Assembly (NCBI GenBank): GCA_950295325.1
Contig: OX485807.1
Location: 50,064,440-50,128,439, forward strand
DNA length: 64,000 bases
Direction: 5' to 3'
Source: Polytrichum commune
Taxonomy: Eukaryota; Streptophyta; Polytrichopsida; Polytrichales; Polytrichaceae
Position numbers and translations under genes: made by a program
Notes under the pieces: model-generated
Told to the model about the DNA's origin: nothing
Seen by the model: only the letters and a program-made list of their open reading frames with translations
Database searches by the model: none
In this document: positions 3,101-60,507 of the stretch, piece by piece
How the letters are laid out: the number at the start of each line of letters is the position of its first letter
Numbering within the stretch: position 1 is the stretch's first letter

Positions 3101-3251
3101 ACCTATTATTCCATACCCTATAGTACTTTAAAGATGTCTAGTGTCATTTTTGATACCCTATATTACTCTAAGTTCATTTATAATTTTTAGCTCCCATGTT
3201 TTTAAAATACCCTATCATTTGTTCGCACGTAGGTAGCTACTCCAACCATTG

Positions 3252-3269
3252 ACTGCCCCCCCCCCCGAG
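3252..3269. repeat. Right terminal inverted repeat of P-like copy 1
   Basis: ACTG, eleven C, then GAG. It is the same terminus as 24970-24984 except for three extra C in the homopolymer. The adjacent GAAATCAC (3270-3277) is the predicted 8-bp target duplication. Confidence 0.85.
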
Positions 3270-3277
3270 GAAATCAC

Positions 3278-6834: not shown

Positions 6835-6899
6835 TTCACCTCTAACTCCATTCGTCTCTTGTCCAGTGGGCTCCATGCAGGCAAACCGTTTTCAATAGG

Positions 6900-8686: not shown

Positions 8687-8699
8687 TGAAGTCGAGATC

Positions 8700-9640
8700 A
8701 ATTGACAAGTCTTAACTGCACTCCTGCGAACAGACCTGCAAGCTCACCGCGTCTACTTCTTCCTGCTATCTAATCTCGACGGTGATCTCCCAAATAGCTT
8801 GCTCAAGTTCTGTACCCACGGGTGCGATTTATAAATTTGCAATTGGAATAGGCTCTCTCTGTATGCAAACTCTGGATCGACAAACCAAATGAACCAAAAT
8901 ATAGTGGCCTTCAAGGATTTGTCCTGATGTGTTGAAATAGAGCTTGACAAGCTCCGTCTTTGCACCTTCGCATCCATGGCTGTGACTCTGCGACACATTT
9001 CCACCAAAGTTGCTACTTTTCAATAGTGGGTTTAATCTGCTACACTTTCCACTACCGCAGGAATCTAAAATAGATCATCAAACGCATTTTGATGATGAGC
9101 TGATTGAGGCCCCCAGATTCCAGCGAGCCATGTCTTGGAGAAAGGGTTCTGCTATGTATCCACTGGGGTTTCTGCTACTCCGTAGCAGATATCCAGACTG
9201 TGCTGCACGTGCACGATGCACATTGGATTGTGTAGGAGGCAGCTCAGATTCTGAGTCTCGGCCTAACATTCAGGTTAATTGTTCGTAGAATGGTGGATTT
9301 CTTTGGATGAACGAGAGGCCCCTGAGAGGTACAATTCCCTCTCGCCCACCAATTGTCCTGTCTGAACCGGCCGTGGGATGTTTTCAGTATAATATACGGC
9401 AACATAGCTCAATCCTAACCCCTACATACACCAATCTGAAGTGGGACAGTTGGAGCCCTGTAATTTAAGGTTTGTTTATTTATTTATGAGAATTAGCTCC
9501 GGAATAACTTCTAGGAAATCTAATTGTACCGATATAAAGGGAGATGGGGCTTGAAAATGTCTTAGATTCTTCAACTACCTACGTGTCACTTTCTGAGAGA
9601 TTAGAACACTCAACACTTCTTGAATGTGACTTGAGCAGAG
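8700..9640. other. D1-specific sequence upstream of the minus-strand membrane-protein gene
   Basis: It is absent from D2, where 8350 joins directly to 9640-equivalent sequence at about 31410. About 8890-9035 matches the decayed copy at 3870-4020. It contains several short motifs related to TAGCAGAAA (near 9030, 9050, 9150, 9170). No second gene is visible. Confidence 0.45.
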
Positions 9641-10175
9641 TTTCTCTGCTAGATCTGTTCTGCTACACAAATTTATTCTGCTAAACTTGTAGGACCACAA
9701 GTCCACGACTATCCACAAAACTCACTGCGGATTTGCGGTGGGACCTGGCAGTCAAGTTCCCCACCTTAATCCTATATATAAGTAATGACCGACGAGTTTG
9801 TTGGTAGGCTTCTCATCACATTTTGACAAGCAGACGATCTTTGCCCAAGTACCTAAATCAGTAAAATACTCCTTCAATCACCTTGGGAAGTGCATGTGGG
9901 ATTTGCATTCTGCTACAGCCACCCCTTTCTGCTCTCTTCTTGGAGCCAGGTTTATAGCAGAATTCTTCATCCGAGATGATGTATTCAGAAGTGTATGCAG
10001 AGCCAAAAGTGTCTAATCCTCTGAGTCAGTCACCTCGGAATTTGGATAACTATTAATCCAAATCCAGCTATGGTACCTGAAATGAAGATTATAACATGGG
10101 AAAACTGCAATAATCCAACGAACTTGAAGATTGCCATGTAAACCACAATAACCTCTAAAATTGTAACCTCTAAAG
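9640..10175. other. D1 noncoding with TATA-like sequence
   Basis: CCTATATATAAG at 9772-9783 follows a GGTGGGACCTGGCAG block and resembles a core promoter. The D2 counterpart is CCTATATATTAC near 31541. A 72-residue frame starts at 9798, but it is not conserved in D2, where a 660-bp element interrupts it at the site equivalent to 9820-9827. I see no supported gene. Confidence 0.3.
9820..9827. other. Empty target site (ATTTTGAC) for the 660-bp element of D2
   Basis: D1 reads CATCACATTTTGACAAG without interruption. D2 has the same site split by 31589-32248 and duplicated as ATTTCGAC and ATTTTGAC. Confidence 0.8.
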
Positions 10176-10344
10176 TCCTGATCCAAAATTCACCTCCACA
10201 CGCGGCATTTCAAACTATTTTCTTTGATGCCAAGTGGAGGATTACCTGGATTCCTTGTGGCACTTGTGACCATATAGGCATATAGCTGCAAAGATCACAA
10301 AATTGAAACTGTCAAGTTGTTCATGATGTAATCTGAGAGGAAAA

Positions 10345-11240
10345 TCTACACTGATATGTGCAATTTTTTTGCCTTTGCAAATAGGTTCCTCTTTACCCAT
10401 TCAAATTACCTTGGGCCAAAATCAAATCACAAAACTTATAACTTTGTTTGTTCATTTGTACAACAACCACACAATTTAGAAACATCATGTATTTTGTTGT
10501 TTGTTGTGCTAATAGTCAATCAAAATAATGTGGAATGTCAACAAGTTAGCTCGAGATGACCTAATTGCACATATCAATGTACTTTGGTATGTTAGGGTTA
10601 ATGATGTGCCGGCCATGAACTATGACCTTTCACATGTAACTTGAGCTATATCCTAGTACATGTCTGCGGAGACAAGGTCATATGCCATAATACTAATTTG
10701 TTGAAACTATAGTAAATAGTCTTGTTAGGGTGGGTGGAATTCTCTAGCACGGGTCACACTAATTTCCTAGTTAGGGTGGAATTAACATGGGTCCAAGACA
10801 TTGGGCCTTTCCCCAAGTATTCATGAAGACTTCCAACCAACACATTGAATATTTTTTGTAAGACAAAAGTAGCACAAAATTAAATAATCATCCACGTTAG
10901 TTTTCTAGAAAAAAAATTAATGTGACCCATTAGAATTTTAGGGTAGATAGAAAATTAATTTGTCTCACATTAATTCTCAATATGAAACTTAATGTGGGCT
11001 TTAGAAAATTATTATGGCCAATAGTAATAGGACTATTCAATGTAGTAGAATACTACACCAATATCTGCAATTAGGTTGCCCTATCAACATTCCACATTAT
11101 TTTGAGCATTAATTACGGCAGTTTCAAAGTACATGAATTAATTTCTTGAATGTGGTTGCGATACAAATGAATAAGCAGAGTTATAAGTTTTTGTGATCTA
11201 ATATTGACCCAAGGTAATTTGCAGGAGCAAAGAGGCAGAA
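10345..11240. repeat. Imperfect inverted repeat, arms about 200 bp
   Basis: About 10345-10595 is the reverse complement of about 11035-11240. Shared blocks include ATTACCTTGGG, AAACTTATAACT, CAACCACA, AAAATAATGTGGAATGT and ACCTAATTGCA. The loop is about 450 bp and AT-rich. D2 has only the right arm (32625-32830), so the left arm and loop (10175-11030) are extra to D1. Transcription through it would give a hairpin RNA (inference). Confidence 0.65.
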
Positions 11241-12092
11241 CATATTACAATGTAACCCAAATTAGCGACATGCAGTAGCAGAAACATAGCAAAGTATGCG
11301 CACTGCTATGATGTAACTTATGGCCAGGAAACTCTATCGTAGTGGAAAGAACGCAGATCGGCGCTGTCCCCAGCCATGGGGACTACAAAGGGCCCACTTC
11401 CACGTTTCATGACTTTTCATAGGGGAATGCGATGTTTATTGAGTAAGATAGAAACCAGCACTTAGAAGCAGAAATGTGGCAATGCGTGGTTCTCCTAGAA
11501 GTAGCAGAAAAATTAGTGGGGGTGTAGCAGATCCTGAGCCCTTTTCCGAAAAGCAGTTTGATTCGCTCTAAGTAAGCTAGCCGTGCCTAGAGTTAAACAT
11601 TTCATTGAGGAGATGTGTCAGGTTGAATGTGATGTTGAGGTATATTCAGATACGGACCTCCAGTAGCAGAAAAGTAGCAAAGTCTTTCCACTACAGAACC
11701 ACTATGCATTAAGACTGGTGCAACAAACAATTTACATCCCGCCGATGTGCAGGACAATGCATCGTTCCAGCACAATTTCTAGTGGAAAGCTTAGCAGAAC
11801 CCGGGATGCAGCCATGCCTCCAAACTCCAAACTTCAAACTCCAAAGGTACAAAAAGGGTGCAAATGGAGGAGGACCACCACAGTTTAGTCACTCAGGTGG
11901 TTTATTGATCGTGAGTTGCATGCCAAAAACCTTTCCCTTTGCACATTAGAAGTCGATTGCTGCAGCCTTGTGCACGGTGTTTTCTTGTCCCATTGATTGA
12001 TTATAGGTGTGTTGATTTGATAGTACGAGGGAATAAAAGGAGACGGTTGGCAGAGTTGCTAGAGCTAGAAGAAGAGACTAGACTTGTTGCTA
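11240..12092. promoter_or_regulatory. Upstream region of the 12093 gene with repeated TAGCAGAA motifs
   Basis: Motifs of the form GTAGCAGAAACATAGCA occur near 11275, 11505, 11530, 11665 and 11790. The D2 copy retains the cognate sites near 32863, 33095, 33115, 33290 and 33418. GGGAATAAAAGGAG at about 12029 is a possible TATA-like element some 55 bases before the ATG. Regulatory function is inferred only from position and repetition. Confidence 0.35.
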
Positions 12093-12789
12093 ATGGCGGA
12101 TTCTCCTCCCTCCCTTGAAATCGAGGAGTCTGATATTGAGAGTCAGCAACAGAATAGCCTAAATTCTGAGCATGCCAATGCAAATGGATGCAACAAAGCA
12201 TATGCATTCATTTGCAAGCACGGCGCACGATTACAAAACCGTGTAGCACTTGGGTTCTCGAATATTTCAAAGGCCATCTTCTTACCGGCCGCTCATGTGG
12301 AGAACGGCCTGCTGGAGCCTGAGCACCTGATGGGCTACAAAGCGAATGGACACATTCTCAAGCTCCTCGGAGGGCTTCTTACCATTTACACTCTGGTGTT
12401 CACAACATTGGCCCAGGGAAAAAGGTTGCGTTGTGTGCACTGGTGGATCCCATTTTCTCTCGTTCTCATTGTTTCAGTTGCTGTGGCCATTGCCGTTTTC
12501 TGTCAGCTCAAGAAAATGTCCCGCAGTGCCCGACAGGTACGTCTGCACCCCAGCCACACACGCTGAATTTCAGAAACACTGCAATTGTATTCCAATTGGA
12601 TTAGTTTGATGTTTATAGGTTAAGGGTTCCACGGTGAGATTTTGTGGGCAATGACGAAGGTGTCAATTTAACACACCTTTGAACTGGTGTCCTTGTCAGA
12701 TGGTGATCTCTGTGGCTGTGCTTGGAGGACTCTGCGCGATGTCAACGATATCTCTCATCTCGTGCAGAGTATTACTCTGTCAATCATGA
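12093..12789 (+). CDS. Small three-helix membrane protein, two exons (D1 copy)
   Basis: Exon 1 is 12093-12536 and ends CGACAG/GTACGT. Exon 2 is 12700-12789, after CTTGTCAG. Splicing in phase 0 gives 177 aa. Residues 1-45 are polar and acidic (MADSPPSLEIEESDIES). Helix 1 is at about 88-108 (ILKLLGGLLTIYTLVF). The conserved RLRCVHWWIPFSLVLIVS block forms helix 2 at about 117-139. A basic KKMSRSAR follows, and exon 2 supplies helix 3 (VAVLGGLCAMSTISLI, then CRVLLCQS). The D2 copy at 33723-34419 keeps start, length, splice sites and stop, which supports a real coding gene. The in-frame TTG upstream is ignored in favour of the ATG. The family is unknown; an integral-membrane role is inferred from hydropathy alone. 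Confidence 0.65.
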
Positions 12790-13633
12790 AAGTCTTTGGG
12801 ATAGTAATTTAATAACCGACAGCCGACCCATTACAATTTTACGATCTAGTTGTCATGCTTCCAACAACATTTCCATTGACTGATGCTAATTTTGTACTTC
12901 TGGGGACTTGAAGCAACAAAGCTTATGTATTGTGAACGGTAAACAAGACCATATCTCTTGCTGCAGATCAAATTTGGACCTGGAACGTTGATGAGCCCGT
13001 CACACATACTCTTTCAAAATTTCCCCAAATTGTGTTGCTGCCACATTCAAATTGTGTTACTGTCACATTCTGGTCGAATTTAAGAGCTCGGAATGCGGGA
13101 ATTAGCATGAACAAGATAGAGTTGCATTCATCATAGGGTTCTTCAAGTTTGTTGCTTATATATATGTCACACCGTGGCCATATTGCAATTTCCATACATT
13201 TTGCAACGAAAGATGCTTTAATCATTGAATCCAACGGTAATGGTGAACCTCAGGTTCAAGGTTGGTATATTGCATCTTGTAAGTGGAGTAAGACCACGTG
13301 CAGGGTTTCCATCTGTGTAGCCCATGACAGGCAAACTGAAGTTATTCATTGTGAGCACTGGAAATGCGAATGAAGCTACAAGGTCACCATAATATAACTT
13401 TCACCAACACAACATGAACCATAATCTACCCTTGGGGACCGGCTCACTAAGCCACCGGCATTTCACACAAAGCATAGAGAATTCTAGAGCAGTTCAAGTA
13501 TTGTTCAGTAGAAAGTAATTACAAGCTTCAACGCAACAACATCGTCTCAAAGAAAATATGACAGGCTCATTCATGTTTACATCTAGATTGAGTATTCTTT
13601 GTCTTTCATTTGAGGTCATGGAAGTTAGAGGCG
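12790..13633. other. D1 noncoding, shared with D2
   Basis: Colinear with about 34420-35250. The 13149-13373 frame has no intact equivalent in D2. No gene supported. Confidence 0.45.
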
Positions 13634-13641
13634 GCTATGCC

Positions 13642-13907
13642 CAAGGGTAAAGCCAACATTTTGACCTGGGGGGGGGGGGGGGGGGGGCTGATTTTCGAAT
13701 ATGGAATCCAGTGTATTTTTTATTTTCAAATTTTAATAGGTGGTCAAATTTGATTATTTATTGAGAGATTTGGACTCGTCGAGCTGACATCCCTATAATG
13801 TTTTTGATAATGTCATTTTTATCCAAAGCTTTGGCAACATGGGCGAAGCTATGGGGGACGTTCCTTCAATGTCAGTGGGGGTTGAGCCCCCCTTGGCTTT
13901 GCCCCTA
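13642..13907. mobile_element. 266-bp hAT-like MITE with internal 20-G tract
   Basis: It is flanked by perfect 8-bp direct repeats GCTATGCC (13634-13641 and 13908-13915). The ends are CAAGGGTAAAGCCAA and, reverse complemented, TAGGGGCAAAGCCAA, an imperfect 15-bp inverted repeat. Both ends start with a YARNG-type pentamer typical of hAT elements. D2 lacks it and has the single site GCTATGTT at 35252-35259. A run of 20 G lies at 13668-13687. There is no coding capacity, so it is nonautonomous. The hAT assignment rests on duplication length and end sequence. Confidence 0.75.
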
Positions 13908-14279
13908 GCTATGCCTGACAGGCCAAAATACCGTGCACATGGTTGCAAATCTTTTTGAAAGAACCCACATCATCAAGATGCCGACTTTAGAATGAAAAAT
14001 TGTTCTACTCTAAGAAAACAAGAGAACATGGAGAAATTACCCTACCTCCAAGGCATTATGTGCATCCAACCCACCAACATGTGTTAAAAAAGACCATATC
14101 TTGCACCTTTACACTATAAATTCAACATCTAACACTGCTAATCCATGCAATCCTACTAACGCCAAAGAGCCATCCCTTTCCACAACCTAGCTCGCCCACT
14201 CACCCGGACCCCGAAGCCCACCCCAATGTACCGATATAGAGTATTCTTGGTTTAAACCTCACAAGGACTCCAAGCATGC

Positions 14280-14880
14280 ACCGAGGACGGTAGTAAGTAG
14301 TTTGGAACAAGAGACTCTCTATTGGTTCTACCTAATACCTAATGATGTAGGTGGCCAAATCATTATGTGGAACTATGAATATATAGGTATACTTTTGGTG
14401 AGGTTATCATGAAGTATACATAGAGAACTATGTTGAGTTTAATGTTGCTTCGTTCAATTTGAACACTCAAAAAACATTGCATGTCATAGCTTTATATAAA
14501 CCCCCTGCCATGCACTTAGATGAAGTCCTTCACACCTTGATAAATTACGTCTCACTCCTCCATGTTCTTGTCCTATAATTTTTACAGGAGACTTCAATGT
14601 GAATATGTTGAAGGTACCTACTCAATCCAATAAAATGAGAAACTATATGAGACATTATAACTTTGGGATTATTTTTTCAGAGTCCATAATAACCTACGAT
14701 TTACAATTAGATCATATATGGACTAATGCAATTCTTACCGGTTATTAGTCAGGATGCCTAGAATCATATTGGACATATCATAAACTGATTAATATAGCAA
14801 TTACATTATATGATCTTCTCCCACTTGTCCATCTTCTTGACACAATTCCAATGTTCCCATTATGATGAGTTACATACAAC
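14280..14880 (+). pseudogene. LINE remnant, endonuclease (EEP/APE) region, D1 copy
   Basis: Broken frames read ALYKPP, then FTGDFNVNML-like, then LDHIWTNA-like motifs in order. These resemble the Tyr-Lys-Pro-Pro, Gly-Asp-Phe-Asn and Asp-His motifs of non-LTR retrotransposon endonucleases. Stops and indels interrupt it throughout. The paralogous copy is at about 37765-38310. The reverse-transcriptase part of the same element resumes at 16509-16561 and then, after the P-like transposon, at 24993. Confidence 0.55.
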
Positions 14881-16553: not shown

Positions 16554-16561
16554 CCTTAAAC
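16554..16561. repeat. Left target-site duplication of P-like transposon (CCTTAAAC)
   Basis: Identical to 24985-24992, immediately outside the terminal repeats. Confidence 0.93.
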
Positions 16562-16576
16562 CTCGGGGGGGGCAGT
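16562..16576. repeat. Left terminal inverted repeat, P-like transposon
   Basis: CTCGGGGGGGGCAGT. A second, less perfect match to the other end follows inward: GTGCGAACAA at about 16601-16610, versus the same motif 29-38 bases inside the right end. Confidence 0.9.
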
Positions 16577-16928
16577 GTGTTAGAAATTTAAGGATATAGG
16601 TGCGAACAACCACCATTTTATAGGGGGGTATTACTTTTTCTTTTCTTTTTTTTCCACGGGCTATCATTATATAATTTTCTAATTTGGCTTATTATTACAG
16701 GGGCTTGCATTACTTATAATTCCAAATTGATATGAATAAACGATATGGTAATTTAGATTTAAAAAAAAATTCTACTACAGTTTTTGTCCTACATCAAATT
16801 ATGAACACATACATGAAATCAAACAATGTAGGTTAAAGTGTAAATGATATAAAAGAGCAATTTGTATAGATCACATAAAAACTATACAAACCTTTAGTAT
16901 GAAATCATTCATATTATGAAACACAATA

Positions 16929-17148
16929 GAGTTATCCTAAAAGTCAAGTGGCCTTTGAACAAATAAGAGCCATTAAATCAAAACACATGGCATCTTGTTC
17001 AAATGCCACTTGACTTTTAAAATAACTCCAATGAGGGACCACCAAGCTCTTTCAAACTTCATAACTATTTACAATGAACAAATAAGAGTACATTAAATCA
17101 AAACACATGATATCTTGTTCAAACGCCATTTGACTTTTAGGATAACTC
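16929..17148. repeat. Subterminal repeat array of P-like transposon
   Basis: The motif TTTTAGGATAACTC occurs at 17135-17148, in inverted form at 16929-16942 and in degenerate form at 17015-17028. The same motif lies near the other terminus at 24724-24737 (and 3006-3019 in copy 1). Around it, a unit of about 85 bp (GAACAAATAAGAG through CTTGTTCAAA to GACTTTTA) is repeated at 16957-17030 and 17077-17150. A related block, ATGAGRGRCCACYAAGCTCTT, is at 17031-17051 and 24698-24718. By analogy with P and hAT elements these are candidate transposase-binding sites (inference). Confidence 0.65.
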
Positions 17149-17298
17149 CAATTTACAAAGTATTTGTGCACAATCATAGTAGTATGAAATAAATGTTCTC
17201 ATTGTGTTTACAAACACAATGAATGAAACTAAATGTGCATATCATGGAGACACTGACAAATAAAGATAAAACCGTAGCTACTTGAATAACCTGCAATG

Positions 17299-20200
17299 CT
17301 AAGTAGTTTTTGACACAAATTCATCTAGCACCTGCCGATCAGTTTCTTTTAGGGTGTAAACGTTGCTATTAGATTTGAATGACAATGCAATGATGCAAAT
17401 CACGCTTTCAATGTCAATCCATTGGGTGTCAGTCACATCGTACTTGTATTTGTTCCTCCCCGGTGCTGATTTGAACCAATTCAACATTATTTGAATGGAC
17501 GGTGAAGAACTTCCCTTCTTACCTACTAAGGTGTGAGCCATAAGGTTGACAGGGTTTCTACACAATCTCCACGTTTTTCCAACCGTCCTTCGCATTTTTT
17601 GGACTCGGCCCAGCCACCAAGTGCCAATGTTCGGGCCAACGGTCACAGCAGTCGGGTGTCCCACATGAGCACTGGTGCGGTTCCTCTTCTGTGCTGCTCT
17701 CACTCCAGAACTTTGGCCCAGAGTTCGTGATTGCATGAACATCACAGCGCAGTCACTTCCAAGTCCAAGGAAAGCGGTTGATGTTGAATTTGCAGTTGAA
17801 AGGTAATCCTCTGCGTTATTGAAATAAATAGAGTTCTTGATGCGAGTCAAGCGGTCCTTTGATAAGAAAGGATTCCCATTCAATTCACCTACTAACGTTG
17901 ATTTGTAAATGGCCCTGCCCTTGTACTCCACCACCGGCTCTATTTTCTGTACAAGGTTCTGCCCAGTTGGAGGCATTGGTGGGCTCGGCTCAGCTGAATC
18001 TAGCATTTGCGAGATTGCATCCCTGCATTCCTCCTCAGCAAGTCTTAAAATTTCTTCCCTATCATCCAAAGAATCGTCCACAATACTCATATCCACGTCA
18101 ATGTCCACAACACTCTTATCCGGGTCTACATTGGCGCCGTCACCATCCACGGTCTCTTCTTCCATTGGCAAAATTTTGGAGTCCCTCATGGCCTCACCAT
18201 CGCCATCTTCGCCGGGGACAGGTTTTTCGGGAGCCACATATGCCCAGTGCTTTGGATCCGCCCTCTCGACCGTCCAAGGCTGCAAGAACCACTGTTTATT
18301 TCTAGCATAAGAGGATGGAGCCATATTTAGCACCTTCAATTGGGTTTGGGCTGCCTTTAGACCTTCCTTCAACGCTGATACGAAGTCCTCATCTGTGGCA
18401 AGGGCGTTGTAATCTCCCAAATCTGCAGGGGACTGTCCCTGTTCTAAAGGATGCAAGTCAGCCCAGATGTTACGCTGCTTGTTATGCGCTCTACCAAATT
18501 GCAATCCATTGGGTCCATATTCAATCGCAGCAAGCTGGTTCACTGTGTTAGCACAACCCACAAGCTCTTGGAAATCGTAAGCTCTCTCCATACCCTGCAT
18601 CCCTCCCACCTTGCTAAAAAAAATTTCACACGAATCAGATCCTGTGAGGTGCAGTGGAACTGGCAAGTGAGAGAATCCATCACGAAAATACCTTATCAGT
18701 AAGACCACAAAATGGCAAGACAACTGCACATCAAGATAGCATTGGTTGCTCACAAAGCATTCTTGTAGCGTGGGCTTCTTTGTATTTCCTCCTACACCGT
18801 GGTCACCATGGTCGAACCACAACCTCCATATTCTAAAAAAGAATGACACTTTGCTAGCAAGAACCACCCTCTCCCTCAAAGTCAAAGACACGGAAAGGAA
18901 AATGTCGATATAATCAGCACATATAGACAAGTACAGCTCAGTCCCCAAAGTTCTTTCTTGATGTGCGTCCTTACAAGTTCTAAGTTCCTGCAAGCAAGTC
19001 CTTGCCTTCTTTGCACAAATGCGTTGTGCACTAGCCCAATTTTGTCTGTCTGTTCGGTCCACATCTTCTTTTCTAAGACCATGCTGATCAATACCAAACT
19101 TTTGATAAACTTGACCAAGATGATCTAGGTAACAGACATCAGCCCCTAGTTGAAGGTTCTTTACAGCACTGTCAAGTGGGTTGATCAATTTTTTTCCGTT
19201 ATGGATGAAATCCTGATCATGCAAGCCTTTAATTTTATTCTCCCCAAGCCACTCACAAGATAAAGACCAGCCTTCCCATGGAATTTCATACCTGAATCCT
19301 ACCTTGCTGCAGTAGTCTTCAACCATCAATTGCCTTCTCCTAGAGTCGCCATCTGAAGAATGCCCTATAATAGGTCCAACAACCGGCCCACAACTATATT
19401 GCCAAAGGGTGTCAATACTCTCCCACTGACTTCTCACCCAACTCGAATTAAATCGATTGCAAGTGCATGATACAACAAGGACAAGTCTGGGCAACTTATC
19501 ATGCAACGGATTGACCATGATGACACGAGCAAAACTTCCTTTGACATTCATTCGAAAAGAATCAACTATGGATGAATATCCACTCTCACCATTCCCTACT
19601 TGCGGTTTGAAAGTAGAGATGCACACATGATTCTCCTTTTCTCCACAAAAGCCTACCAATCCATCTGACCGAGCGTCCCAAGAAATACGGGACTTAACTT
19701 TCGTCTCGTCTTCAGCTAAGATGACTGGGACTGGTCCTACCACTCCGTGACTTGCTTTGGCCTCCTTGTAAATGTCAGCCACAGCAGCAAACAACGAAGA
19801 ATGTTCCCCGGCAATGAACTGAACTCCTTTTTTGTTTTCCCTCTTGGTACAATCATATGACGGTCCACCAAAATTCAAAGCAAACAAATCACACATTCGC
19901 CTCCCACCATAGATCCTCATAGCTTGTGCAAATGATTTTGAATTTTTTGAGAATGTATGACCCTGCCTCACACGATTCAAGTTTGTGGCAACATCCCTAA
20001 GGAAGTCCCACAAAGTTGGCTTTCCGCCAAAGGCGTTGGTTCTGTGAGCCGCCAAAATGTTGTTACAAAAAGAGAGAACATCCTTTCTATTAAAGCTTTC
20101 TACGGCACTAAGTTTCAGACCGCGGTGACTTACTTTCAATTGCGCGACCCTAGCCTTCATGAGCCAATGCTTAGCCTTTTCCTCACGATATTTCCTCGCT

Positions 20201-21828
20201 AATGTCCTAGACTGTGCGGCCACCTCAATACATTGCAAGTAGTCTATCCTTCTTCCAGACTGTGTATCCCTGCAACCGCGCTTAACAAGAGCACGACCTT
20301 CCCTAAGCACTCTAAGTCTGAAATCAGTGGCCTGCTCAATTTCTATGCAACAAGAACAAGTGAAATCCGTGAAAGGTTCTCCTGTGCCATTCAAACGTTT
20401 ACATTGTACATGACGGAAGCAACCTTTCACAACGACAATCTTGCCTTTGAATACAAAATTTGCAGTTGTGTTGGGCTCCGCTATCCACAACGATCCAGGC
20501 TTTGAATCATTGAGCAATGAATCCATTCTATAGCACTTCCCAACGTACTCAATGATTTTCTTCCTAAATCCCCAACACAACAATGACAAGATAGAGTCTG
20601 AGTGCATACCTGATGGAGATTCGCTTGTAGTTACGGAATCTGTACTGCCCGAACTGCTGAACCAAGAATGCAGGTCCCGTTGATTTCCAATTGTTGTTCT
20701 CGACCTTGCACTAGGTCTCCCTCGCTTCCCGGAGCTCAATGCACATGATGTCTTTGAAGAACTGTTTGCCCTTACCAAATCTTCACAACACTTGGTATGA
20801 AGGAGCCCATGGACATGATTCTCTAAATTAGCTCTGAGATTTCCCTTTTGCGGGCACAAGTGCATTAGTTCTCCGTCGATTTTGCAACGCACCTTGAACC
20901 AAAAGGACTTGAACTGAGGAACCCCCACATCTCCCACTATTACAAATGGAGGATCATCTTCCGAGATGGAATCATTCACACTTTGAAGAATGCTGACACC
21001 TTCCTCCACGAGACGCTTGTGATCGGCTGGTGTCAAAATTATGGGTTTGCTAGAGTTGCCCTCCTTCTTCGGGTGATCGTTGTACAAGATATTCCTCTTC
21101 CTACACCACTGCTTGATGTGAAGAGTGGAATGCAAGTGAGACTTTTTGAAATTCGCAAACAAGTTTTGTATGGCAATCCGGGAGTGATCACGACCTGTAC
21201 CCCCGATTTCTCTCTTGCACTCCCCACAAAATATTTTCACAACTGCCACGTCATGGTGATCGTATGTTTTGAGGTTCCACACGTGATCAGCGAAATCCAT
21301 GGACTCCAACTCCCTTCTAAGCTTCTCAGCACCCCGCTTGTAATTCTCAAGCACGTCAACAGATAAGAGTGTCGATTGCAGCAAAGTCTCTTCCTCTTCA
21401 TGAACTTCAATCAGATCTGCCTCTTCCAACGTCGGGGCAACACCGCAGAGCAAGATGTCCGCAACACACGGTTGGACAACTTCATCAACTCTAATTTCTA
21501 CTTGGGGCTCCCCTGCAAAGTCATTGCTCCCCGCTTCACCCGGCGCTTGAAGACGACACCGCTTCTGAAGTCCACCTTCGTCCTCCAATAAAGGAATGAC
21601 ATAGACACGGTCTGTCACAGGATTCATGGCCTCAAACCTCTTGAGGATTCGACATTCATCTTGGAAGTCCCAAAAAAGGAAAGGCCACTCCACGCATCCA
21701 CCATTCTCCAAGCGCGTGCGCAAATCAGCATAAGTGTCGCCCGTTTGGCAAAAGAAGGGGCTCAATAGCTCCGGCCGCGAAACATCATCTTCAACCGAGT
21801 ACAACCTAATCTTGAAATTCAGCGCCAT
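17299..21828 (-). CDS. P-element/THAP9-like DDE transposase, intact
   Basis: Single exon, 1,509 aa from the ATG at 21828; the open frame extends four codons upstream to a TTG. Zinc-finger-like clusters are at about residues 200-242 (CGECKREIGG, then HLHSTLH) and 315-347 (CKIDGELMHLC, then HVHGLLH). The first acidic catalytic motif is at about 703-728 (AEDETKVKSRISWD, then GLVGF), like the DEM-x-IK-x-WD-x-GF motif of THAP9 and P transposases. The second is at about 824-832 (HSSDGDSRRR). An HDQDFIHNGKKLINPL stretch at about 870-886 recalls the DPxHLxK motif of the P family. A final Glu motif is at about 1062-1076 (TGSDSCEIFFSKVGG). An acidic segment lies at about 1205-1275. No stop or frameshift is seen. 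It is expected to cut and paste its element in the nucleus. The assignment is by motif only; KDZ or another DDE family is the alternative. Confidence 0.75.
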   Translation of the reverse strand: MALNFKIRLYSVEDDVSRPELLSPFFCQTGDTYADLRTRLENGGCVEWPFLFWDFQDECRILKRFEAMNPVTDRVYVIPLLEDEGGLQKRCRLQAPGEAGSNDFAGEPQVEIRVDEVVQPCVADILLCGVAPTLEEADLIEVHEEEETLLQSTLLSVDVLENYKRGAEKLRRELESMDFADHVWNLKTYDHHDVAVVKIFCGECKREIGGTGRDHSRIAIQNLFANFKKSHLHSTLHIKQWCRKRNILYNDHPKKEGNSSKPIILTPADHKRLVEEGVSILQSVNDSISEDDPPFVIVGDVGVPQFKSFWFKVRCKIDGELMHLCPQKGNLRANLENHVHGLLHTKCCEDLVRANSSSKTSCALSSGKRGRPSARSRTTIGNQRDLHSWFSSSGSTDSVTTSESPSGMHSDSILSLLCWGFRKKIIEYVGKCYRMDSLLNDSKPGSLWIAEPNTTANFVFKGKIVVVKGCFRHVQCKRLNGTGEPFTDFTCSCCIEIEQATDFRLRVLREGRALVKRGCRDTQSGRRIDYLQCIEVAAQSRTLARKYREEKAKHWLMKARVAQLKVSHRGLKLSAVESFNRKDVLSFCNNILAAHRTNAFGGKPTLWDFLRDVATNLNRVRQGHTFSKNSKSFAQAMRIYGGRRMCDLFALNFGGPSYDCTKRENKKGVQFIAGEHSSLFAAVADIYKEAKASHGVVGPVPVILAEDETKVKSRISWDARSDGLVGFCGEKENHVCISTFKPQVGNGESGYSSIVDSFRMNVKGSFARVIMVNPLHDKLPRLVLVVSCTCNRFNSSWVRSQWESIDTLWQYSCGPVVGPIIGHSSDGDSRRRQLMVEDYCSKVGFRYEIPWEGWSLSCEWLGENKIKGLHDQDFIHNGKKLINPLDSAVKNLQLGADVCYLDHLGQVYQKFGIDQHGLRKEDVDRTDRQNWASAQRICAKKARTCLQELRTCKDAHQERTLGTELYLSICADYIDIFLSVSLTLRERVVLASKVSFFFRIWRLWFDHGDHGVGGNTKKPTLQECFVSNQCYLDVQLSCHFVVLLIRYFRDGFSHLPVPLHLTGSDSCEIFFSKVGGMQGMERAYDFQELVGCANTVNQLAAIEYGPNGLQFGRAHNKQRNIWADLHPLEQGQSPADLGDYNALATDEDFVSALKEGLKAAQTQLKVLNMAPSSYARNKQWFLQPWTVERADPKHWAYVAPEKPVPGEDGDGEAMRDSKILPMEEETVDGDGANVDPDKSVVDIDVDMSIVDDSLDDREEILRLAEEECRDAISQMLDSAEPSPPMPPTGQNLVQKIEPVVEYKGRAIYKSTLVGELNGNPFLSKDRLTRIKNSIYFNNAEDYLSTANSTSTAFLGLGSDCAVMFMQSRTLGQSSGVRAAQKRNRTSAHVGHPTAVTVGPNIGTWWLGRVQKMRRTVGKTWRLCRNPVNLMAHTLVGKKGSSSPSIQIMLNWFKSAPGRNKYKYDVTDTQWIDIESVICIIALSFKSNSNVYTLKETDRQVLDEFVSKTT

Positions 21829-24800
21829 CTTCCACACCAACCAAAACCAGAGCTGCTAGTGCACTTGAGCTGCGGCTGGGATGATTGAATTTTCCCTCTT
21901 ATGATTCGACTTGCTCAATCATTCCACCTCTCTCTCGCATCCAATCAATCAAAGAGAAAATAAGTACCTAGAAAAATGAATGTCGCATTGCAAAACGAAT
22001 GGATTCTTCAATGGCAGCCTCGCCTTAGCTCAAAGTTGAGGAAGCTAGATCACCACACCGGCAGCCAAGACCTGCATGGAAAATGCATCCATATTCTCAT
22101 GAGCTCAGATAGAACCCCTCCATCAGCATCCAGGGTAATCTTATTGCCAATTTACTTTAAAAAACACTCATAGGTACCAAATTTACCATTACACACCTAT
22201 TAGCCTCCACCAACAGGTATTATCAAGAAAATGTAATGCCCCTTGGTAACTCATGTACCCCTACATACTTGTGTTCCAAATCCCAAAGGTGCCCATCAGT
22301 ACACAACATGGCACAAGACATGCAATTACATTCTGCCCACCCTCTTCCTAAACAGTCAGTATCTGCGATTCCAATCCTTAGATTTCTCTAGATTCCTGAT
22401 TCCTCTTTTGCACAAAATTCGCTGAAGAGAATCACAATCAGCCAGACATATCTCGATTATGTCTTAGTGGATAACATGCCAGACATAAATATGGATTATG
22501 CTTAATATTCCAAGGTGGAAACCCTTTCTGCTTCGAGCCTCAATATTTCGGGGGCCCCAGAGCTCATATTTGATTACCTAAACTGAGGACCATGGTTTCA
22601 CTGGTCGTCTTTCCAGATTCTTTGTGGCAACAAAAACCTCTCACTCAAATAATCAAGTGATCAACAGCTCACAGCTCAGCCTCTCTTGAGGCCCAGCCGA
22701 TTCTTACTGATCACCATAAATATCCGTGATAACCAAACTCTATCACCACATGCAAAACTATCCCACAAGATTTTCTGAATGCCATTGTAGGGTACCAGAT
22801 TAGCCCCTACTTCTTCATGCAACCACTCACTCCACTAACACATACAATGATCGGGGAGAACTGGCACTTAGTTACAGATGAACCGGTTGAGTTTGAGAAA
22901 TAACTGGTCGAAGTTCAAGACTGCAAGAAAACTACCGATCATTTTAGAGGAATTTATGGAATACACCGCAATTGTATAAAGGAAAACCGGAGGATGCCAA
23001 CATGTAACCGGTTGGACTTGCAAACACTCGGATCTCAACCGATTATGCCCAACAATCTCCCCGATCACTGAACACATACTAACAAATAACTCGACTGTTT
23101 CTCCCAAGCGGATTTTCTTGAACTTTTGATCAAGTTCAACTGGCGCTCCCTACACTGCAGTGTCTATTAATATCCGTCGTCAATGCTGCCATTGACGAGT
23201 TGTCGTGAATGACCAGCGCAATGTAGACTCTGTGCACAAGATATAAGCTCAATGTGTAGCAACATCAAGGGTTGAAACAGAGGTGCATTGAAACATTACG
23301 TACATGGAAAGTGAGAGTGTAGCTGCAGCTGCAGCCTTCCAACTCGTGCACTGTTGAACAACGAGAGTAGGTGGCAAGGACAATCAAGAAGAGCCCCTTT
23401 GATTTGGCTCTTTCTGTCACTTTCTCACGAGAGAGGATTGATTTCGATTTGGAAGCAGGACACTGAAAGCGCAACTAACAAGGAAGAAGATACCAATACA
23501 GAGAAGGAAGTATGTACGTCGATATTCATAGCTACAATTAGTGGACCAGGTAGCTTCACTTTCAGGATTGCCACGATCTAAAGGACTGTAATGAAAAACA
23601 AGCGGAGCTTTCAGGAATACCAGAATTGCTGCTGAAGCTTAAGTAACCAAGCCCTCTCATCAGAAGTATCATATTCCTCCTGTGTTGGCTTTCAAGTTCT
23701 CGGAGACTACTTTCTTTCCTGGTGATAAATCAGTTCTGGTGCTTTCTAAATACAGGGAGCAGCTATTAGAAAATCGCTCTTCACAATATTCCAAGAAGAA
23801 GGTTGTAGTAAAGCTCAGACTGTGAGGTTTCTGAGAGCTGGCGTATTATAATTTAAGGCCCAGATCAAATGCAATGCTGAAGTAAAAAAGAAGTCCAACA
23901 ATTATTGGAGGTGAGGATAGATCAAGAGGCTGGGGAAACTTACAGTACAATACTCTGCCCGCATCCTTCTCACTAATGACATCGATTTTGTCGACCCCAA
24001 GCTTGACACTGTCACCCGATGGTGAGCTTCAGAAAATTTTGATCATCACATCAATTCACCTTCGGATAAAAACCAGCGACCAAGTCCCAAAGGTTGAAGT
24101 CGTGATGATCTCCACCGCCAACTCCTCTCTCCATACAAAAAATGAAAAATGAAAATTTTAAACTCACAAGAAAGACTCAAAATACTAAATCTACGGAGCC
24201 GATGCAGTAAGATCGCATATCCAACACTGGCAAGAAGACAATACATCTACGGTACCTTACAGACAACCATCTCTACAGGCTCTCTCTCTCTAACCACACA
24301 GTGTGCATTCCTTTAAACCTCACACAAGCATATTGTCGGTGGGAACACGCGGGTCTGCCAAGCCATCGAATCCTAAAATCCAGAAATTGAGGTGGCTAGG
24401 GATGCGGAGACTTACGATGTTGCGAGGAAGGTTGGCGGTGTGTGTGGCGAGGCAACAGTAATTGGGGTGCAATCCGAGGGAGTGCAGCTGGAGCATCCAG
24501 AGAGAGGGAAGCGCGGGCAAAGGGCGAACGAGGGAGGCAGAGAGAGAGGGAGAGAAAGAGAGAGACAGAGAGCCAGCGCAGGGGGGTTGATGCCTGAGAG
24601 GCACAAGGCAAGGGGAGGGGAGGGGAAGCCATTTTTTCCGACCATTAAACTAATTGTGCATGAGTTTGAAGACAGCCAAGCTCTTACACACCTAATAATG
24701 AGAGGCCACTAAGCTCTTCTATATTTTAGGATAACTCACAATGTAGCATTTTCATACTTTTGGTCAAAAATAATAATATAAAGGGGGGTATTTTAGAACT

Positions 24801-24969
24801 ACTTCATTTTCTAATGGGACCTATTATTCCATACCCTATAGTACTTTAAAGATGTCTAGTGTCATTTTTGATACCCTATATTACTCTAAGTTCATTTATA
24901 ATTTTTAGCTCCCATGTTTTTAAAATACCCTATCATTTGTTCGCACGTAGGTAGCTACTCCAACCATTG
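21829..24969 (-). promoter_or_regulatory. 3.1-kb 5' leader region of the transposase gene
   Basis: No coding exon is evident. On the minus strand, a TC-rich tract (24535-24575; TCTCTCTCTTTCTCTCC type) lies about 400 bp inside the terminus, as in plant core promoters with Y-patches. About 150 bp downstream, CAACATC/GTAAGT (24413-24423) is a strong splice donor. A candidate acceptor (TGCACTAG) lies about 35 bp before the ATG, near 21860. This suggests a short 5' UTR exon and an intron of about 2.5 kb. The many small frames here are unlikely to be coding. Copy 1 carries the same sequence at 123-3251. Confidence 0.4.
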
Positions 24970-24984
24970 ACTGCCCCCCCCGAG
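24970..24984. repeat. Right terminal inverted repeat, P-like transposon
   Basis: ACTGCCCCCCCCGAG, the exact reverse complement of 16562-16576. Confidence 0.93.
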
Positions 24985-24992
24985 CCTTAAAC
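24985..24992. repeat. Right target-site duplication (CCTTAAAC)
   Basis: Matches 16554-16561. Sequence after it continues the LINE interrupted at 16561. Confidence 0.93.
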
Positions 24993-27900
24993 CCGAAATA
25001 ACAAAAATACAAAGCAATCCCAACACACACCCACCACCTACCACCCACCTACAATGATGCACAAGAAATCCAATCATGGTTATATAACATCACAAATATC
25101 GCCAAAATTGCTAACATGGAAGCCCAAAAAAATACAAACCTACATACCTCCCAAAATTGAAAGATAGCAATTAAGAAATAAATAACCCTCCTAGACCTAA
25201 TTTTTTTTATTTAAAATAATAATAATAAATTAATAATAAACTAGACAAATACACAAAAGAATTTTCTTCCCAATGGACTGCCTTATAGACAAAGATGGCA
25301 ACATAACAATGCACCCAGATACCATTGCACACATCATACACTCTACACAAGAGAAATCATTCCACAAACAAGCCACCCTCTGCTCAGTTCTCATTGACCA
25401 TCCACATGATTATATGTGTGCCATCTGCCAATACCCTTGGCTAACTAAAGGAGGCTTCATACTCAAAAAAAGGAACCCCTCCCAACTCCCACCACTAGGA
25501 TCATCCTTCACAATAATAATTTACAACCTCTACTTTAAAAACCTATCCAATGAGAAAGGCCCTGGATTGGATGGCATCCCCAACAAAATCCTAAAAACTT
25601 TACCAAACACCTTCCATGACATGTTGTACTTATTTTTCCTACAATGCTACCATCAAAAAGCAACACCGGAACATAAAATCATTACAATATTACTTCACAA
25701 GCAAAAAAAAAACATGCAGTAAACACCAACCACAAACCTATTGCCTTATTATGTACAATCTACAAACTATTCACAAGAAAATTAAGCTCCCTCCTTACCA
25801 CCTTCCACAAACAACATAGTATCCTCCATTATAGCCAAGAAGGCTTCCGTCCAATGAGAAAGACGGCTAAACAAATTCAAGCAAACACTTGCACCTCACA
25901 TACATAGACATTCACCTCATATACATAGACTTTTATAAATGTGTTTGGCTTCATTGACCACCCACGCCTTCTAACCTTAATGGAATACCTCGGATACCCC
26001 CCAAATGCCATTGAACCAATTGGAAACATATTCACATGATCATCCACCTCCTTCCAAGAGGCCTATTTCACCACTACACCACCCATCCAAATAAGACGTG
26101 AAGCCATCCAAGGAAACACTTTAAGCTCATACCTTTTTATTATTTTCTTAGAACCACATCACGGATGGTTAGGAACAGACTAGATGGGATATCAATTCAA
26201 CACCTCACCCAACACCATCGCGACAATAGCATGTGCAAATGACCTCATCATCCTCATTGACATCGTAGAACACATACAACCACAACTCAACAAGCTAAGA
26301 CAATACTCAAATTGGGCACACATAGACGTCAACATAACAAAAAGAGCAGTCATAGGTTGCCCTAACAAATCAAAATTACAACCCTTAGCATTTACCACAT
26401 ACATGAAAGCACAAAACATCAACTTCAAAAATTAACAACTTCCCATTTTCACACAAAATGAATTGTACACATACTTTGGCATAAAAATGAAACCATCTCT
26501 CAAATGGAACATACAAAAAGAATTAACCATTGCCAAAATCAAGAAACAAAGTGCCGCCCTCCTCTTCCATCCCTAATATCCGTGAACATAACAAACTACT
26601 CATAAGACTCACAAAATCCATATGTAACATCCCCGGAGATTCCTCTAACATCCTCAGACAACTACTTTGGGTAGCATTTGGAATAGAAACATTGTCCCTC
26701 CTCCCACAATATGCCATCACAATTAATGATCAACTCACCCAAACACTCAATGACCTAGACCCATTAGCAGACATTTACCAAGGTATAGTAAAATTCATAG
26801 GAAACAAATATGATGACGCATAATATCTCATGCTTTTGAAATACCAAGCCTGCAACAAATCCCCACCACCAAAACCTCATACTTACTTAAGAAAACATTC
26901 CTAGATCCACCTAAACTCCATAGGCACCACCTTCCCCCTTAACACATTCCCCTTATATAACGATTTGCACAAAATTCTACACCACCCTTATGCCGCCCTT
27001 ACACCACCCGAAAAAGAAACTACAAAGAAATTTCTCACAAAACTTGCCACATTCAACATCACAACCCTTAATCAACTCCAAGATCCCTCCATCACCCGCA
27101 TACTTACACTCAAAGAATTCCAAATAAAATACCACACTAAATCTAGGACGATAAAAAAATGTTCTCCTTCAAGCCTCCACTATGTTCCCACCTTACACCT
27201 ACCACATACCACATACCACCCTCTACACAATATAGATCCCCACCACCACCCTCAACTCTACCACAACACACAAACCTCCCAACACACCCAAAACCACTCT
27301 CATGCAACCACTAGGCTCACCCATAACACATATCACCAACTTCAAATACACACACACAAAAGAGGGCGGGGGGGTTGAGAAATGCATACTCAAATTTTAT
27401 TGCCATTGGCAATCTCCACACACCAACTACACAAAACGGATCTCACAATCCCACCTCCTAAACCTAGACACCATACTATATGAACACAACCTATCACTCA
27501 TCACAAAACTAACACAATACACAAAGCATTAAGATAAAAATTAAAAAAATCCATTTAACTAACCCACAATCAAGGGCTAGATGACAAGTCTACCCAAGTC
27601 TCAATATCCCACATCTCACCCTATAAACAAAAGAATGCAACCCGGACAAAGACATCAGCACCACCTCTCCAACAATACAAATTACCCCCCCCCCTCCCCA
27701 TTCACCCAAATACATGACAATGATGGATGATTCATAATTGATATACCACTTGAAAGACTCGCATGGCTATGGGATAGATACTCCAGAAAATACTCCAGAT
27801 ACATATCTACATCCAATCACAACCTCTATCCTCCCATGCACGAATGCGCCACATAAACACTCCTCCTTATCAACCGCTACCTAAACCCCGTACCACACCG

Positions 27901-29496: not shown

Positions 29497-31189
29497 CCTC
29501 TGACTCCATTCGTCTCTTGTCCAGTGGGCTCCATGCAGGCAAATTGTTTTCAATAGGTACCCTCGTTATATAAGTTATGCATGTGTTATTTGGTTAGATT
29601 TTCTAATTAGAAACATGTCTTTGATTGGTGTGTGGTTTGGTGAGGATCAAGGAATAAACAACATAAGGACACGTGTTTAGGACAAATTGGACTACGTCTT
29701 TAAATGTATCAATTACTCCACAGTGAACACAATTGGGAGGACCTATGTATTTAATTAAGGAATCAACAAACATGCACTTTTGATAACCGTAACTAATCAA
29801 GGGCAAGTCCGATTTTCAATCTTGTATTTGGTGGTGCTTCATCGTAGATTTGTAATGCAACAACTTTTTTGTTGTGAAAATCTAAGGTTGGGGCATCTAT
29901 AACCAATTAAATAAGCGAGTTTGCATTTGTTTAGGAGGAGTATAACGGGGAATTATTTTTCTTGCAAAGAGAAACAAATTTTAAGGAGAATGCACTAAAT
30001 TAAATTCCTTTCAAGAATATGGAAATTGCTATAAATTTTGAAGGGGTAAAATTAGGGTAACACATAATCAATCTATAGGTTGGCCCATAACTGCTCATCT
30101 AAATGCTAATGATTGGCTATGACAATTATCAGAACTATTATTAGGTTAATCAATCACAAGCCACTAGCACATAAACCTTAACTTCGTTTGCCTAAAAAAT
30201 ATAAATCTCATCCATGTCAACATTACATGGCCCTAGTGAGTGGTTTAATGGACCCAGTCAATTATGGATGCCTCAACCTTAATTAGTAGAAGTCAGAGAA
30301 CATGAAAATTGCACTGAGTTACACCCACATACCTTAGGTCACCCCAATTACGTTCCCTATTGCACCTAGAATGATATTTTAACATGCACCTCAATCTCTT
30401 TTGACCAAAAGTCTTTTTGGTGTCCATTCTTAGAATCCACACCTAACTACACACCACATAAATATAAGTATCCGATTAAGATAGTAACCGAATTAGGCAC
30501 ATTTACCTTATTTCCAACATCCTTGATTCACTCTTGAAACAGGTTTTTGCACTTTTGCCACCGTGGTGTTATAATACACAGATTAGTGCGATTTTCATGG
30601 CGTCATTTAAAGTGTCCTGGGTTATCATTCGACTTCAAGATTTAACGTGTTATATATCTTTCATTCTCGCAGAAGAAGTAAAGAAGATGAATCTTCATCT
30701 CATATTCATGGCTTAGTTTGCGTTGGGATTGTGCAGGAGGAGAGGCATGCCATGCGAGGCCAGGCAGGCAAACCTATCTCTGCGTTAGCAGTGTTGCAGT
30801 TTGTCAAACTGAATTCCTCATTATAAGCTCCAATTGCAAATACAAGGGAATCGCGCTTACAAAGTCGACTAAATCTCATACCAATAAAGACAGCATCCCA
30901 GCCCCTCCAATCCCCAGCATTACACACTCGAAGCACAGAGCTACTCAAAGGGTCAACTTGTCAGCTAAGAAAGTACAAGCTTACTTCTGAGAAACAAAGT
31001 GTGATAGCCTCACTCACATCCATGGTCGTCTGACTCATCATCCAGGTTCTCAACTCGTAAAACAACTTGCTAACTTTATTCTCAAATATTTCCTGGACGT
31101 CCTTATTAGCAACAATTGTGTAACTTGATAAAGCAATTCCAGCGCACACTAGGTCATAGTTTGAGTCGCATTCAGATCTACGCTGAGCT

Positions 31190-31278
31190 TCAGACTGACA
31201 GAGGATTTCTCTGCCAGCGACGAGAATAATATCCGACGTCGCAAAGAGACCTCCAAGCACAGCACCGCAGCTCACCAC
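31190..31278 (-). pseudogene. Exon 2 remnant of the minus-strand three-helix membrane-protein gene (D2)
   Basis: GTGGTGAGCTGCGGTGCTG after a TTTCAG acceptor encodes VVSCGAVLGGLFATSDIILV, the match of exon 2 at 8131-8220. Exon 1 is missing because the equivalent of 8350-9640 is absent from D2. A one-base difference near the end removes the stop used in D1, so the frame runs on to about 30961. It is a truncated gene. Confidence 0.6.
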
Positions 31279-31588
31279 CTGAAATGGATGGATTGGCACC
31301 AATTCAAGAGTGCATTAGAGTGACATCCTCCTCGCACAAATTCCCACCAGAAGCCACCGGGAGACAGTGTCTCTAGCTACGTGAGGTCCATAATACATCG
31401 AGGTGTTTCTCTTCTAGATCTATTCGGCTACACAAACTCGTTCTGCTAACTTCCATATGCATGACTACAAGTCCACGACAATCCACGAAGTCACTGCGCA
31501 CTTGCGGTGGGACCGGGCAGACCGGTTCCCACCTTAATCCTATATATTACTAATGACCGAGTTGGCAGGCTTCTCATCACATTTCGAC

Positions 31589-32248
31589 CAGAGTTCGGGA
31601 AGTTTTTGAAGCCTCAGTGGCTAATTGCCGGTAGTTGCTACGAAGGGTCGGATTTTTTCCAATTTACATCGGCAAGAGCCGGTCTTTTGTAAAATCAATC
31701 GGCCAATTGCCTATATTTTCATGTTTTCATTGGCCAATATCCGATTAAATGGAATTCATATCGGCACCAATTGTTTAAAAAATGTATGAAAAGTTATTAG
31801 AAATAATTTCTTAGTATAGAATCTTGAATAAGTGAAAAGAAAGGCATGTTCAAAACTTTAAATTTGAAGAGTTAATATCCTTGGCAGGAATTGAACCTAG
31901 CAATGCCTTCACCGCTTGAAGGCCAAGGGTCCCCCAATTCTTCATAGAAGCAATTGGATTTGGTCATGGAAAGGTTGCATAATTCAAAAAGTTTAAGGTT
32001 TAGGGTACTTCCTCAAGTGCATCATCAGATGCCCCAGACAAATAGCGCTCAAGATGCTTCCGGTTGAAATCCAGTAACTCACAAGAAGATTCGGCTACAT
32101 TTCCGGGACATTTTCTGGTCCATCGGCTAATTGCCGGAGGATTGAAATTACAGTCGGATTGCCATCCGATGGTTGGAAATTTGGACCGGCCATGAGTGGA
32201 AATCCATCGGTTGATAATGAACTAGCCGTCGGTTTTCCCCGAACATAG
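31589..32248. mobile_element. 660-bp nonautonomous hAT-like element in D2
   Basis: It is flanked by ATTTCGAC (31581-31588) and ATTTTGAC (32249-32256), an 8-bp duplication with one difference. D1 has the single uninterrupted site at 9820-9827. The left end is CAGAGTTCGGGAA. The right end, reverse complemented, is CTATGTTCGGGGAA, a short imperfect inverted repeat. The interior carries several ATCGGC and TTGCCGG-type words in both orientations (for example 31630-31760 and 32120-32235), suggesting extended subterminal inverted repeats. It has no coding capacity. Confidence 0.75.
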
Positions 32249-32624
32249 ATTTTGACAAGTAGATGATCTTTGCCCAAGTGCCTATATCCATAAAATAATC
32301 TTCAATCACGTTGGGAATGGCATGTGGAATTTGCATTCTGCTACAGCCATCCCTTTCTGCTCTCTTTATGCAGCCATGTTTTGTAGCAGAATCGTTCATG
32401 CGAGATGTACTCAGAGGTTCAATAGTGGGTGCAGAGCCAAGAGCCAAGAGTGTTTGATCCCCTGGGTCAGTCACCTCAGAAATTATATAACTATTAATTC
32501 AAGTCCAGCTATGGTACCTGATATGAAGATTATAACATGTGGAAACTGCAATAATCCAACAAACTTGAAGATTGCCATGGAAACCACCATTCAGCCTGTA
32601 AAATGTCACCTCTGACTATTTAAT

Positions 32625-36490: not shown

Positions 36491-36519
36491 GATGGTAGTA
36501 AGTTGTTTGGAACAAGAGC

Positions 36520-37755: not shown

Positions 37756-37764
37756 ACAAAAGCT

Positions 37765-54917: not shown

Positions 54918-55044
54918 ACTTGAGTGCATGCAATCACACTTTATTAGTTTGAATGTATGTGAATGCTTTTGGAAATAGAAGGCATTAACTAGAATATTTT
55001 CAGCTAAACATTCTCAAACAAAATGCTAATTTTAGTTTCATTTT

Positions 55045-55927: not shown

Positions 55928-55934
55928 TACTAAG

Positions 55935-60501: not shown

Positions 60502-60507
60502 TACTAA

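Follow-up and report, generated by a model that had tools for sequence, protein, structure and literature searches.

A young DDE-type transposon lineage in Polytrichum commune, probably a very divergent relative of the P element

Introduction

Does a plant genome harbor an intact DNA transposon related to the P element of Drosophila? The question is raised by an 8,423-bp element at positions 16562-24984 of a 64,000-nucleotide stretch of the Polytrichum commune genome (assembly GCA_950295325.1, contig OX485807.1, positions 50,064,440 to 50,128,439 of the forward strand). This whole stretch is referred to below as the window, and unlabeled coordinates are positions within it. On the evidence of its sequence, the element is a real, young and, by prediction, autonomous member of a DDE-type transposon lineage. 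We consider it likely that it is an autonomous cut-and-paste DNA transposon whose catalytic region is a very divergent relative of P/THAP9. The genome searched was a 407.8-Mb assembly of 64 contigs; about 406 Mb of it is in seven contigs, and the contig that carries the window is 52.9 Mb long. An initial annotation of the window, made from its sequence, had proposed a plant-like host, and this agrees with four LEAFY-domain matches in the genome compared with none in 14 control genomes; to our knowledge, LEAFY occurs only in land plants and the streptophyte algae related to them.

A complete element with precise ends and an empty site

The element ends in 15-bp perfect terminal inverted repeats (TIRs; CTC-G8-CAGT) and is flanked on both sides by the same perfect 8-bp target-site duplication (TSD). 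The initial annotation had described a complete 8.4-kb transposon with these repeats and this duplication, and its boundaries proved exact to the base (Table 1). The 15-mer CTCGGGGGGGGCAGT occurs without mismatch at only two sites in the window, which are the two ends of the element. Allowing up to 3 mismatches added only two overlapping 3-mismatch matches at 3252-3269, which represent the right end of a second copy; shuffled controls gave a mean of 0.50 matches, and 4 matches were reached in 0 of 100 shuffles.

When the flanks were joined with a single 8-bp unit between them, they gave an alignment to 38320-38527 that spans the junction, at 73% over 217 bp (E 1e-35). The paralogous empty site noted earlier near 38.38 kb is therefore real. 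It is located within a duplicated segment in which colinear blocks, about 80-86% identical, link 6839-14879 to 29497-38323, and the match resumes past the element (25526-26046 vs. 38636-39178, 78%). Because of this arrangement, the insertion is most simply interpreted as younger than the segment duplication, in agreement with the recent insertion proposed before. The interrupted sequence had also been labeled a long interspersed nuclear element; this label was not confirmed, as the open reading frames (ORFs) at 25240-25719 and 26905-27375 showed no reverse-transcriptase Pfam match. Two paralogous ORFs elsewhere in the duplicated segment (12069-12566 and 33696-34196) gave weak DUF2834/DUF4079 matches below the cut-off.

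Copies and miniature derivatives in the genome

The window also contains the right part of a second near-full copy, which showed 0 mismatches to the element over the 3,263 bp lying within the window. Since this copy has a target duplication of its own (GAAATCAC), the two represent independent insertions close together; the distance between them is 21.7 kb. Four near-full-length copies were found in the genome. Perfect and mutually different 8-bp duplications flanked all six large copies in which both ends were read, namely the window copy (CCTTAAAC), its neighbor on C5 (GAAATCAC), one copy on C4, one on C2 and one interrupted copy on each of C6 and C7 (these last four with ACCATTGC, ACCCCGCT, CTTCTTTC and CTCAAGAG). 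Further interrupted copies of the family lie on C1 at 9.64-9.67 Mb, on C3 at 53.04 Mb and on C5 at 20.57 Mb.

The left-end 16-mer matched the genome at 240 sites with up to 1 mismatch, compared with 3 for the reversed control, and the right-end 22-mer at 84 sites with up to 2 mismatches, compared with 0 for the control. Many of these matches were the ends of miniature inverted-repeat transposable elements (MITEs). We sampled 30 MITEs from the lists of end matches, 11 of them chosen for having both ends already listed; their lengths were 331-346 bp where both ends were read (about 335 bp). The MITE is an internal deletion of the element, its halves matching element positions 1-167 (88%) and 8258-8423 (93%), and divergence from the majority sequence had a median of 1.8% (range 0.6-48%). 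Flush, perfect 8-bp duplications were present in 28 of the 30, and in the remaining two (L032 and L019) the same 8 bp stood beside a right end that had lost or gained a few bases. Target-base preference was weak at most (A at position 6 in 16 of 28 MITEs). The run of terminal Gs ranged from about 8 to about 19 among the copies read (L011-L040, and L001-L010 for ends) and was often long at one end only, in a sample of ends biased by searching with exact 8-G ends.

Similarity extending past 16562 or 24984, or flanks lacking 8-bp duplications, had been named as observations that would speak against a discrete element. Neither was seen in the copies checked, the outside flanks of which differ, and the search with the termini and tabulation of flanks returned 8-bp duplications for 6 of 6 large copies, flush ones for 28 of 30 MITEs and, for the other two MITEs, ones beside an altered right end. 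The features of a cut-and-paste TIR transposon are all found here: TIRs, a TSD of fixed length, an empty site, a conserved ORF of its own and non-autonomous derivatives.

The transposase gene, its relatives and selective constraints

The element contains a single long ORF on the minus strand encoding a candidate DDE transposase of 1,509 amino acids (aa). The candidate catalytic residues of this protein are D707, D826 or D828, D873xxH876 and E1068. Clusters of cysteine and histidine near residues 201-239 and 315-346 resemble zinc fingers of BED or C2H2 type, by eye only, and no Pfam zinc-finger match was obtained for them. A genome search with the protein gave 32 matches, and one with the core of a divergent relative gave 88, the lowest identity to that core being 34%; several loci account for more than one of the 88. 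The lineages present within this one genome are only about 26-48% identical to the 1,509-aa protein. The proteins of L062 and L063 are 26% identical to it, and the two loci share 99% identity along 4,188 bp. They hold open frames of 1,189 and 1,114 aa (L062:1794-5360 and L063:2296-5637). They also carry QDPLHVGKKLRNP instead of QDFIHNGKKLINP, and QDPLHVGKKLRNP looks closer to the P motif.

Alignment A1 comprised 18 of 33 open segments plus the window protein, and A2 kept those 14 of the 19 A1 rows whose core reached 500 aa or more; a wider alignment of 16 rows combined 11 of the 14 A2 rows with 5 distant relatives. D707, D826, D828, D873, H876 and E1068 were invariant in the 14 core rows, and also in the wider set (columns with at least 14 residues). 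In 17 pairwise comparisons, the dN/dS values of the two diverged, unsaturated pairs were 0.163 (L047/L058) and 0.119 (L050/L056). Nine pairs were saturated at silent sites (pS 0.81-0.86 vs. pN 0.14-0.39), and six very close pairs (dS <0.02) had dN/dS values from 0 to 0.86 on few changes. We take these values as a sign that purifying selection acts on the ORF as a functional protein and that some copies have decayed recently.

Ends of the related families were also read. Matching ends with an exact 8-bp duplication were found at 5 of 15 related transposase-bearing loci, namely L041 (5,802 bp), L043 and L044 (6,351 bp), L046 (7,004 bp) and L063 (5,800 bp). Shuffled controls of the first locus scan gave 0-0.05 per locus; they cover that scan only, and the second scan, which included L063, had a looser end criterion. 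The end of L063 matched at 12 of 12 positions and coincided with the edge of the L063-L062 similarity. The related ends begin with C[T/C/A]CGGGG, and a GTGCGAACAA-like block lies about 34-52 bp in at those examined.

Kinship with the P element

The catalytic and GTP-binding residues of the fly P transposase are given in PMC8230255 as D230, D303, a D339xxH motif and E531, with GTP contacted by D444, and the same paper gives the signature order of the superfamily as D-D-[C/D](2)H-E. According to PMC7776569, P elements make 8-bp duplications, carry inverted repeats in both terminal and subterminal positions, and have copies with internal deletions. All of these structural features are present here: the 8-bp duplication, the 15-bp TIR with a 10-bp subterminal repeat at positions 39-48 from both ends, and the deleted copies. 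As for the signature D...D...[C/D](2)H...E, the candidate residues stand in this order and are conserved; the D230 and E531 windows of the scans described next register, and those of D303 and D339 do not do so on their own.

PDB-verified letters of the fly P transposase were scanned as motif windows against the profile of the family. Among about 1,500 positions, the D230 window placed D707 at the top at 4 of 4 window sizes, the D444 window ranked D975 first at 4 of 4, and the E531 window ranked E1068 first at 2 of 4 (full profile); the three pairs follow the same order in both proteins. When all pairs were ranked, the D707/D230 and D975/D444 regions were the best and second best at h=8 and h=10. 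In addition, 195 residues separate DxxH from the last E here, compared with 192 in P. With half-widths of 6 and 8, three blocks centered on D707, D826 and E1068 chained onto D230, D303 and E531 (controls 1 and 0 of 3,000), and a five-residue test gave 43-170 of 5,000 at two sizes. As regards the GTP-binding insertion domain of P, the window scans pair D975 with the GTP-contacting D444.

Other results weigh against this kinship. The D303 and D339 windows did not find their partners on their own, and the D707/D230 and D975/D444 regions dropped to third and seventh place at h=6. With half-widths of 10, 11 and 12, the three-block chain reached only 1, 2 and 2 of the 3 residues, respectively. The block centers were chosen with the P motifs in mind, and hence neither the four-block nor the three-block chain test was blind. 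Overall scores stayed within shuffles, both for the best single window (84, 55 and 19 of 200 at h=6, 8 and 10) and for the four-block chain (209, 151 and 561 of 1,000), for which Hermes (98, 146 and 180 of 1,000) was about as good as or better than P. At h=8 and h=10 the five-residue test gave a weak result (about 850-1,230 of 5,000), and in hhalign comparisons with the fly P transposase 20 of 150 and 38 of 160 shuffles scored as high. The spacing from the first to the second D is 119, compared with 73 in P.

The database searches point the same way. No Pfam match was found for the window ORF; the 19 related segments matched only six weak, unrelated families (best E 0.02); and among the distant relatives L062 and L065 gave no match and L066 only a sub-cut-off AT_hook. 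PDB searches, among them those with three profiles, gave no credible match, and one of them returned nothing at all. NB17 (E 0.59), PHD finger protein 3 (E 0.72) and Exotoxin I (E 0.036 over a 42-residue stretch) were rejected as being at chance level. A single-sequence AlphaFold2 model of residues 560-1170 (window 18319-20151) had a pLDDT (predicted local distance difference test) score of 35 and was discarded. Among the related loci, a TSD-flanked end pair was not found at 10 of the 15 (L042, L045, L047-L050, L062 and L064-L066), several of which have one end missing or beyond the stretch; single right ends were read at L042, L045 and L047-L049.

Taken as a whole, the comparison with the P element/THAP9 superfamily (Drosophila P, zebrafish Pdre2) shows likeness in the duplication, the repeats, the deleted copies, the order of the motifs, the length of the insertion and the partners of D230, D444 and E531. 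It shows unlikeness in protein size (1,509 vs. 751 aa), in the wider spacing between the first two D residues, in the single open frame, in the G-rich CTCGGGG ends and in the plant host. There was also no Pfam match to a P-type RNase H or to THAP, the DNA-binding domain of animal members, and no significant profile similarity to the fly P transposase. The P-element-like character given in the initial annotation therefore stands at the motif level, where three pairs register in order around an invariant DxxH, and not at the level of overall scores or domain matches. We incline to the view that the kinship with P is real: the lineage is probably a very divergent P relative, with membership not proven. 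Because a P-type Pfam match and significant profile similarity are lacking, we file it as a P-like DDE lineage and not as a member of P.

Rival classifications

If the P/hAT-type motifs were convergent or only very anciently shared, the lineage would be a separate DDE superfamily, not described before. We regard this as possible but rather doubtful. It would account for the absence of a credible Pfam or PDB relative, for scores against P that stay within shuffles, for the distinctive C[T/C/A]CGGGG ends and subterminal block of the related families, and for lineages so far apart inside one genome. It is harder to reconcile with fly motif windows that find D707, D975 and E1068 in order, albeit with some misses, and with the DxxH motif and its nearly P-like distance to the last E. 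Such a superfamily could tentatively be described as a distinct group of eukaryotic cut-and-paste elements outside Pfam, with C[T/C/A]CGGGG ends, a paired subterminal block, an 8-bp TSD and a transposase of about 1,100-1,500 aa in which zinc-finger-like regions are joined to a P-like DDE core. Its diversification would be ancient, and it would have been active in a plant in recent times. The core alignment A2 was also run once against viral contigs and once against prokaryote genomes, and no relative was confirmed there (16 and 135 pattern matches). No P-superfamily element of a land plant was named in the titles and abstract openings surveyed. A Repbase family for this element may already exist under some name, because Repbase lay outside that search.

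Two known superfamilies share the length of the duplication. Zisupton and Dileera elements have 8-bp target duplications and Kyakuja elements 7-bp ones, according to PMC12730594, and transposases of this Kyakuja-Dileera-Zisupton (KDZ) group can exceed 1,300 aa, according to PMC12477816. A KDZ element would thus fit the large transposase and the duplication; it is nevertheless improbable, as no KDZ Pfam match was found in the 19 relatives or the three distant ones, and the PF18758 profile found nothing in this genome, where control genomes gave no match either. The P-type RNase-H profile PF21787 likewise found nothing in this genome, and again control genomes gave no match. Among the family proteins examined, there was no Pfam match to P-type RNase H, THAP, hAT, BED or KDZ.

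A hAT element, which shares the 8-bp TSD, zinc-finger-like N-terminal regions (BED-like by eye) and conserved acidic residues, with a DxxH here where hAT transposases have CxxH, seems very improbable indeed. For Hermes we used D180, D248 and E572, which we take to be its catalytic positions. The E572 window ranked E1068 first at h=8 (core profile), and the four-block chain ended on E572 at 2 of 3 sizes. However, the D180 and D248 windows missed the candidate acidic residues, and the three-block test fell on no Hermes catalytic residue at 5 of 5 sizes. Hermes had no comparable register in the three-block, all-pairs and five-residue tests, E572 meeting E1068 only in parts of others, and most Hermes motif windows lacked a register. 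In addition, no hAT or BED profile matched.

Proposed mechanism

Three points can be read directly from the DNA: the 8-bp stagger, the exactness of the ends, and the fact that the MITEs share them. In the mechanism favored here, most likely cut and paste, the ORF product would bind the ends through its N-terminal zinc-finger-like regions and the subterminal GTGCGAACAA block, which is likely a transposase-binding site. Cleavage at the CTC/GAG termini would be performed by an RNase-H-type DDE site formed by D707, D826 or D828, and E1068, with D873xxH876. Both ends would then be joined to the target 8 bp apart, and gap repair would give rise to the duplication. The same protein may move the MITEs of about 335 bp in trans. 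The catalytic region is probably a very distant relative of P/THAP9 transposases, with BED-like fingers replacing THAP, and the transposase may use GTP.

Other features of the window

The MITE nested in the element has imperfect 15-bp TIRs (CAATGATCGGGG/CAGTGATCGGGG) and about 20 further matches in the genome. It is shared by the other near-full copies, and the copy on C7 is without it at that site; there, the pieces can be read as an unoccupied site for the nested MITE together with a second insertion of this MITE nearby. A cluster of repeated blocks was also observed at 54558-62446, where 54.6-57.3 kb and 58.7-62.4 kb are about 82-90% identical.

Table 1. Positions of the element, its parts and associated features in the window
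Feature	Positions	Strand	Remarks
Left target-site duplication CCTTAAAC	16554-16561		identical to 24985-24992
Left terminal inverted repeat CTCGGGGGGGGCAGT	16562-16576	+	sequence read; window motif search; genome 16-mer matches
Right terminal inverted repeat	24970-24984	-	reverse complement of CTCGGGGGGGGCAGT
Right target-site duplication CCTTAAAC	24985-24992		sequence read
Left subterminal inverted repeat GTGCGAACAA	16600-16609 (element positions 39-48)	+	read from sequence
Right subterminal inverted repeat, identical 10 bp	24937-24946 (39-48 from end)	-	read from sequence
Two 62-nt direct repeats	16971-17032, 17091-17152		inverted partner at 16924-16962
Single long ORF, 1,509 aa, candidate DDE transposase	17302-21828	-	first plausible ATG
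Nested 226-bp MITE	22845-23070		TSD AACACATA at 22837-22844 and 23071-23078
Second near-full copy, right part	1-3269		own TSD GAAATCAC at 3270-3277; left end outside window
Paralogous empty site	38320-38527		alignment of joined flanks

Implications

A single plant genome holds dozens of relatives of a 1,509-aa transposase that has no credible sequence match in Pfam or PDB; in annotations of plant genomes, such genes are therefore probably listed as unknown. If the lineage is a relative of P, the P superfamily extends to plants, where its DNA-binding region is a different one, and it becomes possible to test where the GTP-dependent chemistry of P came from. Because the copies are young and nearly identical and the MITEs are uniform, excision assays should be directly feasible.

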